DNA of 64,000 nt from Candidatus Altimarinota bacterium (GTDB taxonomy: Bacteria; Patescibacteriota; Gracilibacteria; BD1-5; UBA2023): NCBI GenBank assembly GCA_028689065.1, contig JAQTWX010000003.1:1-64000 (forward strand). The letters are read 5' to 3'. Both the position numbers and the translations under genes were made by a program. Of the stretch, positions 17,921-30,876 are shown piece after piece; position 1 is the first letter of the stretch, and every line of letters begins with the position of its first letter. Below the pieces are notes generated by a model, which was given only the letters and a program-made list of their open reading frames with translations, did not search any database and was not told the DNA's origin.

Positions 17921-18700
17921 TTATGGCTGACCCATCCAAAAAATTCCAATGCGTGCCCATATACCATTATCAATAGATGTTATTGTACATCAAGCACAAC
18001 TAATTGAGAATGTTAATGTTTGTCCGGCCGCAACATTATAAGAACCATTATTATGCATCATATCCCAAAGATCATTCGTTGGAGATATAAGTGCTTGAAC
18101 TAACGGAACTCAGTCAAGATAAGCATATAGTGTTGCATAATTACCAGCTGATCAAGTCACGATATCTTGTTGATAGTTCCACATAATTCGTCCAGCTTTC
18201 TTAAATTTTATTCAGAAATTTCCAGTTGGTACTACTTCAAAAACAGCAGAATTACTATTCTGAAGTGTATTAAATTGAGCAAAACTCGTAGTGCTATTCA
18301 TAATTGCGGTTCTATTTGCCAAGCCTCCCAAAAAAGTCGCAGATGTTTCTGATGTAGTAGTTTGGCTTGTTCCATCTGGGAACTTAATTCCTCCGTTTGT
18401 AGATTCAATAATTCCTGAGACAGAAAGGTTTTGTCATGGACTTGTTGTCCCAATTCCTACATTCGAACCACTTACAGTTATAACTTGAGAAGCTTGTTTT
18501 ACAGATTGATTCACATGAGCTACAAGATCATTCCAAGCGGTCGCAGTAAGTCCACTTCCAGATTGAACTGTCGGAAGAGAGCCCCAAGAAGCTGTGGCAT
18601 ATACAAGTGATACAAGGATTATAGTAAATACTGCCGAGAGACCAAAAACAATTCCATGGGTTGCAGTACGTCCAATATTTTGAAATAAAGAAGGTTTCAT
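17921..18700 (-). CDS. Exported surface protein, paralogue A
   Basis: The 259-residue protein has an N-terminal cytoplasmic stretch and a hydrophobic helix (about residues 18-40, GIVFGLSAVFTIILVSLVYA), then an exported part. A region with WNDLVAHVNQSVKQASQ and the SGSNVGIGTTSPGQNLSVSG stretch resembles the head of phage tail-fibre and Bacteroidetes surface repeats (VGIGTxxP). The C-terminal half carries LYAYLDG, WDMMHNNGSYNVAAG and a CAGC pair. Five TGA(Gly). Its first half is nearly identical in DNA to the gene at 45.4-46.1 kb, while the C-terminal half differs. Confidence 0.75.
18450..18648 (-). repeat. Dispersed 199-bp repeat, copy 1
   Basis: Matches 45803-46001 with three mismatches by eye. 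It covers the membrane helix and the WNDLxAHVNQSV...VGIGT region of both surface paralogues. Confidence 0.9.
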
Positions 18701-18860
18701 ATAATGAGAAAAGAAAAGTAATAAATTCACATGAGCTTATTATTGTATTTCTTTTTTGTAAATCAAGTTTTATTTTTAGGGAAAGGATATTAAAAAATAT
18801 ACTAGCTTGAAAACTCTATATTTTTTCATATGATACTTTTGTATTTTAAATATCATCTCC

Positions 18861-20054
18861 ATGTCTAAAAAAATCTACATCATCGATGGATATAATTTTC
18901 TCTATCGAGTTTTCTACGCTATCCCTCCATTTTCTCTGAAAGATGGGACACCTGTGAATGCAGTTTTTGGTATGGCAAAAATCCTTCTCTGACTTCATCG
19001 AGAAGACAAACCAGATTATCTTATATTCACACTCGATTCTCGAAGTAAAGCACGACTAGAACTTTATCCAGAGTATAAAGGAACTCGCGATCGAATGCCT
19101 GATAATCTCAAAATACAGGAATCCATTATCATGGAGATGCTTCAGATTATGGGGATTAAACACCTGAAAGTAGATGGATATGAAGCGGATGATATTATCG
19201 GAACTCTCGTAACAAACCTCGGAAAAGATAAGGAAAATAATATTTTTATATTATCTGGAGATAAAGATCTCTATCAATTTATTGATGGAAATGTTGCAAT
19301 TTATGATACCATGAAACATAAGATTTACCATGAAGCGGAAGCTCGGGAAAAATTTGCAGTTGATCCGAAATATATTGTGGATTATCTCGCTATCTGTGGA
19401 GATACTTCCGATAATATTCCAGGGATTCCTGGATTCGGACCGAAGAAAGCAGAATCTCTCATTAATGAATACGGAACACTTGAAAATATTTATGAAAATA
19501 TCGAGAATATTACTGGAAAAACTCGGGAAGTGCTCGAAAATAATCGAGAGATTGCTTTTGTAAGTAAAAAACTTGCGACTATTGATACGGCAGTTCCTCT
19601 TGATAATTTCTCACTCACTGAGCATATTTTTGCAGAGCGAAATTTTCTTACCCCAGAAGTGATATCATTTTTTGCTGAGTATGATTTTCGGTCCCTTCTT
19701 CCAAAAGAACACATACAAACGAAGAACTTTTCTTCTCTAAATCTCAAACAAATCCCCCTTTTGGGAGACAAAGAAATCGATACTTGTTTTAATCTTCTCA
19801 AAAATACTCGAACAGTAAGTATCGCGACTTATGGGGAACGATTTGCTCTTGTTGGTGGGAGTATCTATTTTTGAGGTGAGGAAATATATACTTTTGAAAC
19901 AAATATTATTAATCTTAAGCCTCTTTTTGAGGAAATACTCTCTGGTAATTATAAAGTGATTGGGTATGATCTCAAAAAAGACCTCGAACGAATCGAGGCC
20001 TATTTAGAAGGAGAATCTAGCAAGGAAAAGTCTGGACAGATGGGATTATTTTAA
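18861..20054 (+). CDS. PolI-type 5'-3' exonuclease with truncated 3'-5' exo-like tail
   Basis: The 397-residue protein starts as DNA polymerase I does: IYIIDGYNFLYRVFYAI, then FTLDSRSKARLELYPEYKGT, VDGYEADDIIGTL, FILSGDKDLYQF, and the helix-hairpin-helix AICGDTSDNIPGIPGFGPKKA. All acidic metal ligands are present. Residues about 290-397 resemble the start of the 3'-5' exonuclease-like domain (VIGYDLKKDLERIE) but then stop. No polymerase domain follows. Likely role: removing RNA primers and flaps. TGA(Gly) occurs at ILLGLHRED and IYFGGEE. Its stop overlaps the convergent gene by 4 bases. Confidence 0.88.
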
Positions 20055-21358
20055 TACGTCCAAATTGGTAGAGATTCACTCATGGTATTATTAGATTCAT
20101 TTGTTTCGTCTACATTACCATTTGTATCAACAGTAACAAAGATAGGAAAATAATTTCCAATCGAACGAATATTGAGTTCTATAGGATTAGCAAATACGCT
20201 CGTTCCTGTACATTGTCCACGGGCTAATTGAATAGTATTGTATATACCAGTGGTAAAATTATTTGATACAAAATTTGTTCGTATAGAAATTGCATATGGC
20301 ATATTTCCTCCCTGATTACATACTTCTGCTATGATATGTCTATCTGAAGAGTTTTGATATAACCTCTGGATAAACAAATCAGGACGATCATACTGGGAAG
20401 TGTTGTTATAATAATTATTATTTGAGTTATAGGTGTTGCAATAATTATTTGCAGCAGTACAGTAATTAGTGCTATTATTGTAATAATAACTAGAATTATT
20501 ACAGTAGTTGTTCGTAGAATTACAGTAAATATTATAGTTATAATTTGAGTTATAATTTGAGTTATAATTGGAATAATTATTCGTGTAATTGCAGTAATTA
20601 TTGGTAGAATTACAGTAGGTGTTGTAGATATTTTGAGAAGGAACGTTATAATACGCAGAATTGTTGGTATTACAGAAATTATTACTTAAAGTACAGTAAT
20701 AGGTGTTATTATTGTAATTAGTAGTATTACAATAATTATTGGTATAATTACAGGAAGAAGAATTATTATAATAGGTATTATTGTTGTAATAGGTACTTGT
20801 GTAGTTACACCAATTATTAGTAGGATTACAGTAGGTATTAGCAGCACAATAATTATTAGCTGCTGTACAATAATATGTATTGCTTCATTGAGAATGTGTC
20901 GAAGGTTGTATGATAGTTGTGAGTGTTTTTGATGGAAAAACAACACTTATTGATTTCGTGAGCTTATTATTATTTGTAACATTTTCTGTTCTTCCATTCT
21001 TAAGAACTGCTCCGGCAGTGATATTGAATGTTTTGGACATTCCAATTTTTAAATCATCGATAGATGCAATCTGAAAATTATGACAATTATTCGAGTCCCA
21101 GATAATAGGAGCACTCTTATAAACAATTCATCCGCCCGGTATTCATATAGCCATATTAAGAGTATCTTCTGATTCAGAAAGAGTTCCACCAAGATTACAG
21201 ACTTTTATATAGAAAAAACTCGTTTCCTGGTACATATCAGTCACCGCAATATCAGGAAGATATTTATTCAATATATCAAAAGGAGATGCTGCAAAGACAG
21301 AATTTCCAAGAATACTTATAAGTGAAAGAAATAAAATAATCTTAGAAGTGGTTCGCAT
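20051..21358 (-). CDS. Exported CARDB-like protein with Asn/Tyr/Cys-rich repeat region, 435 aa
   Basis: A signal peptide (residues 1-23, cleavage after VFA) is followed by a CARDB-like beta domain (PDIAVTDMY, IKVCNLGG). Next is a 163-residue region made almost only of Asn, Tyr, Thr, Ser and Cys (20396-20884). A second CARDB-like domain ends the protein (RPDLFIQRLY, AEVCNQGG, VDETNESNNT). The middle repeats C-x3-NN-[YWF]-C seven times, with 14 cysteines in all. CARDB domains are extracellular adhesion-type folds. Three TGA(Gly). I infer a cell-surface or secreted adhesin. The repeat chemistry suggests disulfide bonding. Confidence 0.8.
20396..20884 (-). repeat. Low-complexity coding repeat (Asn/Tyr/Cys-rich)
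   Basis: AT-rich degenerate tandem units built of AAT/AAC, TAT/TAC, ACT and TGT codons. They encode blocks such as CNSTNNYC, CTAANNYC and CNPTNNWC. Codon choice varies between units, so the protein pattern is kept while the DNA drifts. Confidence 0.85.
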
Positions 21359-21415
21359 AATATTGACAATTAACAGTAGTATTTTACATTATAGTATTTT
21401 TGTAAAAATAGCAAG

Positions 21416-21449
21416 CAAAAAATAGACCTCGATTTATTCGGGGTCTATT
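21416..21449 (-). terminator. Terminator after the lytic transglycosylase gene
   Basis: Stem AATAGACCcCG / CGaGGTCTATT followed on the minus strand by TTTTTT. Confidence 0.75.
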
Positions 21450-22918: not shown

Positions 22919-23272
22919 TTATGCACCGATTGCAGTTATCGCTTCTTCTTCTGTATCTGCGATACTGATAATAGAAGTAATACCTACAAGTTCGAGAGTA
23001 TCTCGTACCTCCTCGGTCATATTCGTGATATACATCATTCCATTACCATCCTCGATATTGGAAAAAATATCTGCGATATATCCGATAGATTTACTGTTTA
23101 GATACTTGAGTCCGACAAGATTAAAGACAATCTTTTTTCCAGTAAAATCTCCAATAGTATTATATACAGCTGTAAAGGTTTTATCTGCATTTGTTTCATC
23201 AAGTTCTCCGTGAAATTCAAAAATATCAACAGATCCAATATTTTTCTTCTTGATATCAATAGGGGTGTTCAT
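22919..23272 (-). CDS. STAS-domain anti-sigma-factor antagonist-like protein
   Basis: The 117-residue single STAS domain has the order VDIFEFHGELDETNADKTF, KKIVFNLVGLKYLNSKSIGY and VGITSIISIADTEEEAI. The serine in NSKSIG is where SpoIIAA/RsbV-type proteins are phosphorylated. These proteins release partners from an RsbW-type kinase. A matching kinase-like gene is at 36360 and a SpoIIE-type phosphatase at 53772 in this window. No TGA. Confidence 0.9.
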   Translation of the reverse strand: MNTPIDIKKKNIGSVDIFEFHGELDETNADKTFTAVYNTIGDFTGKKIVFNLVGLKYLNSKSIGYIADIFSNIEDGNGMMYITNMTEEVRDTLELVGITSIISIADTEEEAITAIGA

Positions 23273-23424
23273 AAAATATTACATATTAAAAAACTAAATA
23301 TACGGGTATTATAGCACTTTTGTGCTTTCTTTGCAAATTTATTGCAAAAAAACCTTTTTTCCATACGCTAAGTAAAAATTTGAGAAATAAAAATATACAT
23401 TTCTGTATCGTAAAAAACCTTTTT

Positions 23425-24465
23425 ATGTGTTCACCTCTAATACTTGAGATAACAAGTAATTTTCCAGCGAATATCAAAAAAGACATTGATACTCTCATAT
23501 CTTTACTTGACTACAATTCAATCTGGCAAACGATTGAATGGCAAGTTATGCTCTATGAAACAAGATATGTATATAAGAGTTTTTTTGTCGGAATTTATAA
23601 AGAAAAGAAACTTCTTTCTTTTGCAATTATTGAGAAACGAAGTATAGGACTGTGAAATTATGGATTTTTTTGTATCGGTGGTCCAGTAGGAGAGAATAAG
23701 GAATCTTTGCAAATTCTTTCAGAAACTCTCAAAGAAATTTCTACAAAAGAGAAAGTTATTTTTATTCAAATAGAACCACTCTCTTCTATTGTTCTAGCAG
23801 ATTTTAAAATAAGTTTTTATAAAAATTTTATAGAAAAATATACAGCGGTTATTGATCTCAAACAAGATAACGAAACAATCCTCGCACATATGAAACCCAA
23901 AGGACGATATAATATTCGAGTGGCGGAAAAAGCATGAGTAGAAGTGGAACAAGTTCCATTAACACAAGAATATCTTGATATATTCTATTCCATTCTTTCA
24001 GAGACATTGGAACGAGACCAATTTTCAGCAAACTCTCAAGAATATTTCCGAATATTTCTCCAGTATCTTGAAAAACAGAATTTAGGGGGGCTATTTATTG
24101 CAAAGAGGGAAGATAGAGTAATTGCAACTGGTATTTTTGTATTCTACAAAAAAACAGCTCTTTATTATTATGGAGCATCGAGCTCAGACAATACTCAGAG
24201 AAAATACATGGCGAGCTATCTTTTACAATGGAAGGCAATAGAAGAGGCAAAAAAACGAGGATGTGAGATATTTGATTTTCTTGGAATTGCTGATCCGAAT
24301 GATCCTCATTCTTCTCTTGTAGGAGTGACTGATTTTAAACTGAAACTAACAGATAATATAAGAGAATGGCAAAAAACTCAGATTCTTGTACTAAGAAAAT
24401 GACTATATCTGATTCTTCAAGGGAAACAAATAATCAAAATGATAAAAAATCGTTTCTTTAAGTAA
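23425..24465 (+). CDS. FemAB-like peptidyltransferase (GNAT-fold)
   Basis: The 346-residue FemAB/FemX-type protein adds amino acids to peptidoglycan stem peptides using aminoacyl-tRNA. Visible family features are SIWQTIEWQVML, FFCIGGPVG, LKQDNETILAHMKPKGRYNIRVAEK, and ALYYYGASSSDNTQRKYMAS with LLQWKAIEEAKKRGCEIFDF after it. TGA(Gly) occurs at IGLGNYG, KAGVEVE and RKGLYL. The start at 23425 avoids an upstream stretch from 23320 that resembles non-coding DNA. The single FemX form suggests one residue is added. Confidence 0.88.
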
Positions 24466-26799: not shown

Positions 26800-27696
26800 T
26801 TATTGCACTCCGAGAAGTTTGTTGATTACTCGTTCAAATTCACTTGCTGGATATGCTCCGGCAATAAGTTCATATTCTCCAGTTTGATTATTAATAACGA
26901 CAGTTCCAGGAGTTCCCTGAACTCCAAGTTTTGATCCTTCGACAGTTTCTGCATCAAATTGTGCTATATTTTTTTTGGAATCTACACAAGCCTGAAATTT
27001 TTTTCCATCAATCTTGAGTTCTTTTGCGAGAGGAAGAAGAGCATCTTTAGAGAATCCAGTTCCATTTCCTCCATTTGATCGAGTAAAAATGGCATTATAG
27101 TAAGAGACGTATGCTTCAGTTCCTCCAATTTCTCCAGCACAGAGAAGAGCATTTGCTTCTGCCTCGGAATTTTCATGAGGAACTCCGCGGAAGTTTTTGA
27201 ATATAGAGTTGAGAGTATCTCCATATTTTTCATGCATCTTATTAATAGTTCCGTCTTTAAACTGTCGTATACAGAATGGACATTCAAGGTCACTATATTC
27301 TACGAGAGTAATTATAGCATCTTTGTTTCCTTCAATATAGGCAGTTTTTTTGATAGCTGCTATCTCGTCTGTTGTTAGGGTTTTTGTTACTGGAGCCACG
27401 GTATTCGTAGTGTTTGATTTTGTTCCTTCTTTTTCTGCTATGAATTGTTTGATTTGTGGAATTTGATCTTCCATTTGGAGTCGTTGAGCTTTACTCAAAA
27501 GTTCATAGTTTTCTTTTCCTCCTGCTTTTTCATATTCATTAGCGAGGTATTTTTCTATTACTGTATCTGCAATGGAAGTATTGAGATAGTAACTTGTCCC
27601 AAGATTTGTGAGTATAGATATAAGGATAAGCGGAATGATTAATTTTTTCCCGTGAGAACATTTTCCTTCTTTTTCATTATTTTGAGAACATGACAT
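26800..27696 (-). CDS. Membrane-anchored DsbA-like thioredoxin
   Basis: The 298-residue protein has a short cytoplasmic start rich in Cys/His, a membrane anchor (about residues 18-38, LIIPLILISILTNLGTSYYL), a charged stalk, and a DsbA/DSBA-like thioredoxin domain. The active site is LECPFCIRQF (CPFC), and the cis-Pro loop is VQGTPGTVVI. It likely makes or isomerises disulfides outside the membrane. Cys-rich exported proteins in this window (the 20 kb gene) are plausible substrates, by inference. No TGA. Confidence 0.9.
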   Translation of the reverse strand: MSCSQNNEKEGKCSHGKKLIIPLILISILTNLGTSYYLNTSIADTVIEKYLANEYEKAGGKENYELLSKAQRLQMEDQIPQIKQFIAEKEGTKSNTTNTVAPVTKTLTTDEIAAIKKTAYIEGNKDAIITLVEYSDLECPFCIRQFKDGTINKMHEKYGDTLNSIFKNFRGVPHENSEAEANALLCAGEIGGTEAYVSYYNAIFTRSNGGNGTGFSKDALLPLAKELKIDGKKFQACVDSKKNIAQFDAETVEGSKLGVQGTPGTVVINNQTGEYELIAGAYPASEFERVINKLLGVQ

Positions 27697-29244: not shown

Positions 29245-30876
29245 TTATTTTTGGATTATAAATTCTATATTATCTGGATTGCTTGAGACTCTTGTAAGCC
29301 AGAATGGTGAGAAAGAAATTTTTACACTTGCAATATTGTTATCATTCAAAAGAAGGGAAGTTGCCTCCTTTGGAGATGTATTAACAATCAGATTTTTAAG
29401 TTTTTTTGTAAGATTATTAGATACATCTTCGAAATTGTAAGAGATTGTCGCATCGAGTTCAGTAGTTCCTTTGAGAGAAAACTGAGGATTAATATTTTTG
29501 GAGATTACATTTGTGATACGAAGACTTTCGTCATTCACTCGTATAAGTTTTTCTGTACCAAAAAGAAGGCTTTCATTGAGAATAGTTTTGAGATAGAATA
29601 GAGTAGCATTACGATCGTACGTATAAGTACTTATTTTTACAGAACCACTGATTGTCACTTCATCCATTTTGTCTCCGATTTTTGCTCCATGAGATAGGAG
29701 GAGATTTTCTACAGTATAAATAATATTATCATTAATAGGAAGTATATCATAATTTTCGCCATTTTCTGTATTTGTTTTCTTGATAGTATCTTTGAGTTCT
29801 TCTAAAGCCTTGCTTTTAAGTTTTTCTGTGAGAATTTCCTTAAAACTTGTCACTTCTTTGTCAGTGAGAATATGTATCTTTGGATTCGTTCCCCCTTGAA
29901 AATCACTAATGGTTTTAGCATAGATTTTATCACGATTGAATTTAAGCCCAGGAACAGTGAGAATATTTCATTCCTTAATATTTCCACGTACTCCAATGAT
30001 TCCTCCATTGACATCATAAGTATCGGCCATAAGAGTTACTGTGGTTTTTCATATAACTGTCATTCAGGAAAGACTACGTGTTGCTGGAATACGGACCCAT
30101 TCATCAGTTTTAAATATTATTCCGTCATCAGTAATAAAACGAGTTGCTGGACGAAAGGTTTGTTCTTGAGAAAGTTCATTATAAATCTCTACAGTTCCAT
30201 AAGCATTTTTAGTGCTCATTTCATCAATAGTAGTAACATTAAATGTATACTCCATTGGTATCTCAAGATGCACTGGTCGAACATTGATAGTATTCTTATT
30301 ATCGAGTACACTTGCTTCTTTTTGTGTAAATACAATGTTTCTTGATACTGTTTTAATTCCCAATTCGGGAGTTATAGTTATATAAGTTTTCGATACTGCA
30401 AAATAAAATATAAAAACAAGGAGCGAAAGAGAAGTAATAAGTCCTACGATAAGGAAAAATATACTTGAATCCTGTCAGATTTTTTTATTCTTGTAAAGTT
30501 CAGTCTTCTTTTTTCAAAGAAAGAGAAATCTAGAAAAAAGTTTTCAGATTTCATAGCGAGTGTATTCAAGAAAGGTAAAATTATGCCTTAGAATATGACT
30601 TTTTGCATATTCTTTCTCGAATTCTATATCATCATTTTTTTGGAAGAATCGAATGGTAAGAGATTCTCCGAGCTTTCTGAGTTCGTTATTGTTCGTGATA
30701 AAAGAAAATCGTTTCATTGGAAAACGATATAAGAGAAGTTTGAGATTGAGATAATTTGTGAGATGGATATTTTCTTCTACCTCTATCTGAATATCAGAAG
30801 ATTCCATTTGAGATATTTTTTCAAATATCTCCAAAATGGAATCGTATTTATGAATGATAAGACTTTTTTTATTCAT
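29245..30876 (-). CDS. Membrane protein with baseplate-J-like extracytoplasmic region, 543 aa
   Basis: Joined over six TGA(Gly). The N-terminal cytoplasmic domain (about 1-110) has alternating strand/helix pattern (LIIHKYDSILEIFEKIS, FSFITNNNELRKLGESL). One membrane helix follows (about 135-158, IFFLIVGLITSLSLLVFIFY). The large external part includes AYGTVEIYNELSQEQTFRPA with TRFITDDGIIFKT next, then VPGLKFNRDKIYAKT. This arrangement resembles CPR proteins annotated as baseplate-J-like. Its start overlaps the FtsA-like gene by 8 bases (ATGAATAA), which suggests translational coupling. Function unknown. Confidence 0.7.

Follow-up and report, generated by a model that had tools for sequence, protein, structure and literature searches.

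Gracilibacteria have been characterised as attached cells that depend on a host and bear type IV pili; none has so far been cultured (PMC11452946). A BD1-5 gracilibacterium encodes an extracellular repeat protein that is thought to act in attachment (PMC6851277). This protein is free of cysteine, is built on a tandem PTD tripeptide and is hypervariable within one population. Vampirococcus lugosii, which belongs to a related episymbiont or predator lineage, encodes giant surface proteins with adhesion-type extracellular domains; these are membrane proteins of 1392-4163 aa, and the text of PMC8080830 mentions neither CARDB, cysteine nor disulfide. The CARDB family (PF07705) is represented by the solved structures 3idu and 2kl6, both of Pyrococcus PF1109, and 2l0d, a cell surface protein. 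Literature searches on Asn-rich or disulfide-containing surface proteins gave no match, and those on CPR low-complexity proteins gave nothing relevant.

The locus described here lies in a stretch of 64,000 nucleotides, referred to as the window, from the genome of a very small groundwater gracilibacterium that probably depends on a host. Its product shares with the PTD-repeat protein that it appears to be exported and that its low-complexity repeat is kept as protein while the codons vary. Unlike the PTD array, the repeat consists of irregularly spaced C-x6-C octets set between CARDB domains. This is a real, selected and undescribed architecture in a known kind of protein, the CARDB extracellular proteins. 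The reading frame is open only under genetic code 25, with three in-frame TGA codons read as Gly. The 435-aa product comprises a putative signal peptide, a CARDB-like domain, an array rich in Asn, Tyr, Ser, Thr and Cys, and a second CARDB domain, encoded as follows.

20051 to 21358, minus strand: gene of the putatively exported CARDB - Asn/Tyr/Cys array - CARDB protein, 435 aa, code 25; homologues in all seven genomes of the genus
21290 to 21358, minus strand: putative signal peptide, aa 1-23, MRTTSKIILFLSLISILGNSVFA; read from the sequence, with equivalent N-termini ending at a conserved SPF[DE] in seven of seven congeners
20933 to 21256, minus strand: N-terminal CARDB-like domain, about aa 35-142, with invariant Cys54 and Cys92; from hhalign to the C-domain profile and strands in the model
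20384 to 20881, minus strand: Asn/Tyr/Ser/Thr/Cys array, aa 160-325; from Cys pattern and composition, no confident fold
20846 to 20869, minus strand: octet 1, CTAANNYC, aa 164-171
20807 to 20830, minus strand: octet 2, CNPTNNWC, aa 177-184
20729 to 20752, minus strand: octet 3, CNYTNNYC, aa 203-210
20672 to 20695, minus strand: octet 4, CTLSNNFC, aa 222-229
20591 to 20614, minus strand: octet 5, CNSTNNYC, aa 249-256
20501 to 20524, minus strand: octet 6, CNSTNNYC, aa 279-286
20438 to 20461, minus strand: octet 7, CTAANNYC, aa 300-307
20054 to 20383, minus strand: C-terminal CARDB domain, aa 326-435, with Cys347 and Cys383; from PF07705 matches of congeners, structure profiles and Foldseek

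The N-terminus of the window protein resembles a signal peptide that ends in SVFA directly before ASPFD. Such N-termini are found in all seven congeners, and the claim of the sequence-only reading that the protein is exported is supported. Export would go via Sec. Neither a transmembrane segment nor a sorting anchor was seen in the protein sequence, so that any retention at the surface is putative.

The assignment of the flanking domains to the CARDB type, also proposed earlier, is borne out by congener profiles, solved structures and a fold match. The window protein itself has no match in Pfam at E<=1 and none in NCBIfam, which agrees with the view that the array resembles no described family. 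PF07705 is matched by 8 of 11 members; the C-domains of the congeners score 36.6-48.8 bits against the Pfam gathering cut-off of 22.7 (best E 8.9e-13). Profile searches match the CARDB structures 2l0d, 2kl6 and 3idu. The AlphaFold2 model contains two beta domains, with 3idu as the best Foldseek match (probability 1.00, TM on target 0.61-0.66, E 2e-3); in the N-domain, strands are predicted with a pLDDT of about 63-79 over most of the domain. The profiles of the N- and C-domains align with each other by hhalign at 98.5% and E 2.8e-15, with the two Cys of each in register, and at the level of these profiles the domains are homologous members of the same family. As the Cys columns are aligned, each domain probably has its own disulfide. 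The CARDB family model resembles both ends of the protein; however, it stops short of the array, and the end domains additionally carry the invariant Cys pair.

Of the 18 Cys in the protein, two are located in the N-domain (54, 92), two in the C-domain (347, 383) and 14 in the array. A recount of the residues confirmed the earlier description of 14 Cys and seven C-x3-NN-[YWF]-C units in a region rich in N, Y, T, S and C. All 14 array Cys fall into exact C-x6-C pairs (164/171, 177/184, 203/210, 222/229, 249/256, 279/286 and 300/307), and all seven octets fit the unit. When the Cys positions of the window protein were shuffled, 0.97 C-x6-C pairs were expected, and none of 20,000 shuffles reached seven. 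The octet array occurs in only one gene of the window genome. Its DNA is only slightly repetitive, with short patches of 12 bp and 21 bp, and 37 of 112 identical residues are encoded by different codons in different octets. The array thus did not arise by recent copying of one DNA unit, and an origin as a DNA tandem repeat was rejected on the same grounds.

Residues 145-325 contain 59 N, 36 Y, 25 T, 20 S and 14 C, and only three of these 181 residues are charged, one of them His. With Asn and Tyr accounting for about half of its residues and hardly any charge, the array might in principle drive an amyloid or prion-like adhesive fibre. Closed disulfide loops every 13-30 residues would, however, hinder an extended cross-beta core, and the beta content of the array in the models is of low confidence, so that we consider such a fibre improbable. 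In both the AlphaFold2 model and a single-sequence model the array has a pLDDT of 20-44 and no confident structure. The single-sequence model places five of six hairpin turns inside octets, which at its low confidence is a hint only. The composition could also suit an N-glycosylated stalk, given the 18 N-x-S/T sequons in the array, but the sequon number does not exceed the compositional expectation in any congener (lowest p 0.12), and no match to the STT3 oligosaccharyltransferase was found in the window genome. A scaffold for STT3-type N-glycans is thereby largely refuted and hardly credible; O-glycosylation is possible.

The gene is present in all seven genomes of the genus, the window genome included. 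Named records are the Gracilibacteria MAGs CG2_30_37_12, CG12 ...38_15, STA_21, STA_89, STC_112 and MsH-30apr19-258; compared with the window protein, the congener proteins show about 45-55% identity. The genomes were assembled independently, and each congener found carries the array in frame. Their agreement rules out an assembly artefact of AT-rich DNA, which the sequence-only reading had named, together with an array absent or out of frame in relatives, as what would overturn it. The array contains 14, 14, 12, 14, 14, 12 and 10 Cys in the individual genomes. Eighty-eight of these 90 Cys form 44 C-x6-C octets, and the two unpaired ones both occur in genome G024, while shuffling predicts 0.7-1.0 pair per congener. 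The suggestion that the repeat count might vary among relatives proved correct, as the seven genomes carry 5-7 octets. The spacers range from 5 to 22 residues, and both they and the codons vary. The commonest octet in the genus is C-[NT]-x-[SAGT]-N-N-Y-C. The octets without NNY, namely C-P-x2-D-x2-C (one per genome in six congeners) and C-I-P-G-x3-C (in three), keep the C-x6-C spacing, which identifies the Cys pair as the selected feature.

This regularity bears on two further explanations. The protein might form a structural coat, in which inter-molecular disulfides cross-link its copies into a resistant sheath or fibre, as in chlamydial elementary bodies. An exported low-complexity protein rich in Cys and Tyr, together with the presence of DsbA and VKOR genes, would suit such a coat, and the envelope of the chlamydial elementary body is, according to PMC6752827, disulfide cross-linked. 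The fixed spacing in 88 of 90 Cys nevertheless points to pairing within the octet, because random cross-linking would not require it, and we regard a coat as unlikely. Alternatively, the array could be a flexible spacer of unimportant content, an N/Y-rich linker that drifts and in which Cys pairs arose neutrally in one genus. The linkers of sister genera speak for this, as they vary in length and composition and are mostly N/Y-rich without octets. Against it, the Cys pairs are retained in seven of seven congeners despite the turnover around them, and the codons differ between octets. A role as spacer fits the evidence and neutrality of the array Cys does not, which makes this explanation as a whole quite unlikely.

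In four congeners, one more CARDB domain follows at the C-terminus. In G021 (L006:1501-2448, identical to L043:8001-8948) the C-domains are lacking, and the frame stops at a TAA right after the array, before the convergent exonuclease gene. The last codons of the G021 array, an N-Y pair, resemble those with which the protein usually ends, so a short-homology deletion is possible, with an assembly fault as the alternative. The C-terminal domain may accordingly be dispensable, or the G021 assembly may contain an error.

Four other genera of the family encode Cys-poor homologues (L009, L010, L012, L051 and L053). They share the order N-domain, linker, C-domain and the Cys pairs of the domains, but no C-x6-C octet array was found in their linkers. 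The linker is short in G014 and elsewhere Asn/Tyr- or Ser/Tyr-rich, with widely varying length and composition. The simplest reading is therefore that this genus added the array to an older CARDB-linker-CARDB protein, and the array would not be needed for the basic function. The homologue of G017 (L053:1501-2817) carries a long N/Y-rich tail after the C-domain with another Cys motif, YYCNG[ST]xY or YCDG units, which may represent another Cys-bearing array of the family, independent of the octets. The rest of the class gave single CARDB-type matches only. A survey of the octet DNA pattern across 353 genomes of the class showed clusters of it, with 3-5 sites in the gene, in this genus alone. A GTDB-wide scan yielded no confirmed relative outside Gracilibacteria, and no relative was found in viral contigs.

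The sequences around the gene contain three elements that may control its transcription.

21388 to 21415, minus strand: promoter-like element CTTGCTATTT-N4-AAAA-N3-CTATAAT, with the -10 TATAAT 29 nt before the ATG; nearly identical in the seven congeners
21421 to 21449, minus strand: terminator-like stem-loop with T-run between the upstream lytic transglycosylase gene and the array gene; -12.4 kcal/mol, z -3.3
19979 to 20001, minus strand: terminator-like stem-loop past the stop codon, within the convergent exonuclease gene

The promoter-like element is exact in six of the seven congeners, has one mismatch in the seventh and is the only such site in the window genome at up to two mismatches. 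Hairpins similar to the upstream one are present in three relatives. Taken together, the flanking terminator-like hairpins and the element suggest that the array gene is probably its own transcription unit. Directly 5′ of the start codon, positions 21359-21375 read ATTGTCAA(T/A)A; six of seven congeners share this sequence, in which no Shine-Dalgarno motif is obvious. The order STAS, SLT transglycosylase, array gene and convergent 5′-3′ exonuclease is kept in the window, G021, G023 and G024. The upstream gene differs in G020 and G022, which nonetheless retain the promoter-like element, and the contig of G025 ends near the array gene. An operon with the SLT gene as the sole route of expression was rejected, since a terminator-like hairpin and a unique conserved promoter intervene and at least two congeners have another gene upstream. 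In G022 (L074:5774-12397) an uncharacterised 2208-aa ORF replaces the SLT gene. Genes for a STAS-domain and a FemAB-like protein (window 22919-24465) lie near the transglycosylase gene; they occur together in the genus and in the sister genus g2, and with the SLT gene they form a possible envelope cluster. Two further window genes have no Pfam match, a 269-aa protein with an N-terminal hydrophobic stretch and a VGIGTTSP motif (17921-18730) and a 543-aa ORF under code 25 (29245-30876).

The window encodes a DsbA-like protein (Thioredoxin_4/DSBA) at 26800-27696, 5.4 kb from the array gene and separated from it by genes on both strands. A second DsbA-like gene is located beside VKOR on another contig of the genome (C7:74675-75642). 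Family-wide, DsbA was found in 27 of 27 genomes and VKOR in 22 of 27, genera without the array included. The proximity argument for a possible functional link is therefore weak: there is no operon, and both enzymes are nearly universal in the family regardless of the array. Their presence with or without it makes disulfides feasible, and the neighbourhood adds nothing specific. Of the earlier proposal of a disulfide-laced protein oxidised by its neighbour, the first part is supported, as disulfides in the array are likely from the Cys pairing and the encoded DsbA and VKOR, and a specific link to the neighbouring DsbA is not supported. Cys pairs at fixed spacing might instead be thiolate ligands of a metal or redox cofactor. 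The common octet has neither His nor acidic co-ligands, though, and the protein appears to be exported by cells that encode DsbA and VKOR. C-x6-C is, to our knowledge, not a common spacing of metal sites. Cofactor binding is thus very improbable.

We propose tentatively, at somewhat less than an even chance, that the array protein serves one Gracilibacteria genus as a secreted tether or adhesin outside the cell, with a flexible stalk that carries disulfide-stapled loops. Within each octet, the DsbA and VKOR of the cell would join the two Cys by a disulfide, closing the eight residues into a loop that may be a beta-hairpin. The beta-sandwich ends would dock to the cell envelope or to a partner. 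A flexible stalk with Tyr/Asn-rich stapled knobs would provide reach, stability and a weak multivalent stickiness towards another surface, i.e. a neighbouring or host cell. We infer the intra-octet disulfides, the surface location and the role as tether or adhesin from the sequences. A role in attachment is reasonable in view of the published host-dependent, attached Gracilibacteria (PMC11452946) and the extracellular repeat protein (PMC6851277). It is rather doubtful that the protein represents a new structural class, in which hairpins of eight residues, each stapled by a disulfide, would be arrayed along an uncharged Asn/Tyr chain between Ig-like domains and grip a prey or host cell.

The array is a low-complexity segment in which the Cys spacing is what is most strictly kept, and so simple a module could serve as a stapled linker. 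How Gracilibacteria hold other cells is poorly known, with type IV pili as the usual suspect (PMC11452946). A genus-wide, apparently exported protein with its own promoter-like element and a precise, disulfide-ready repeat provides a concrete and expressible candidate for attachment.
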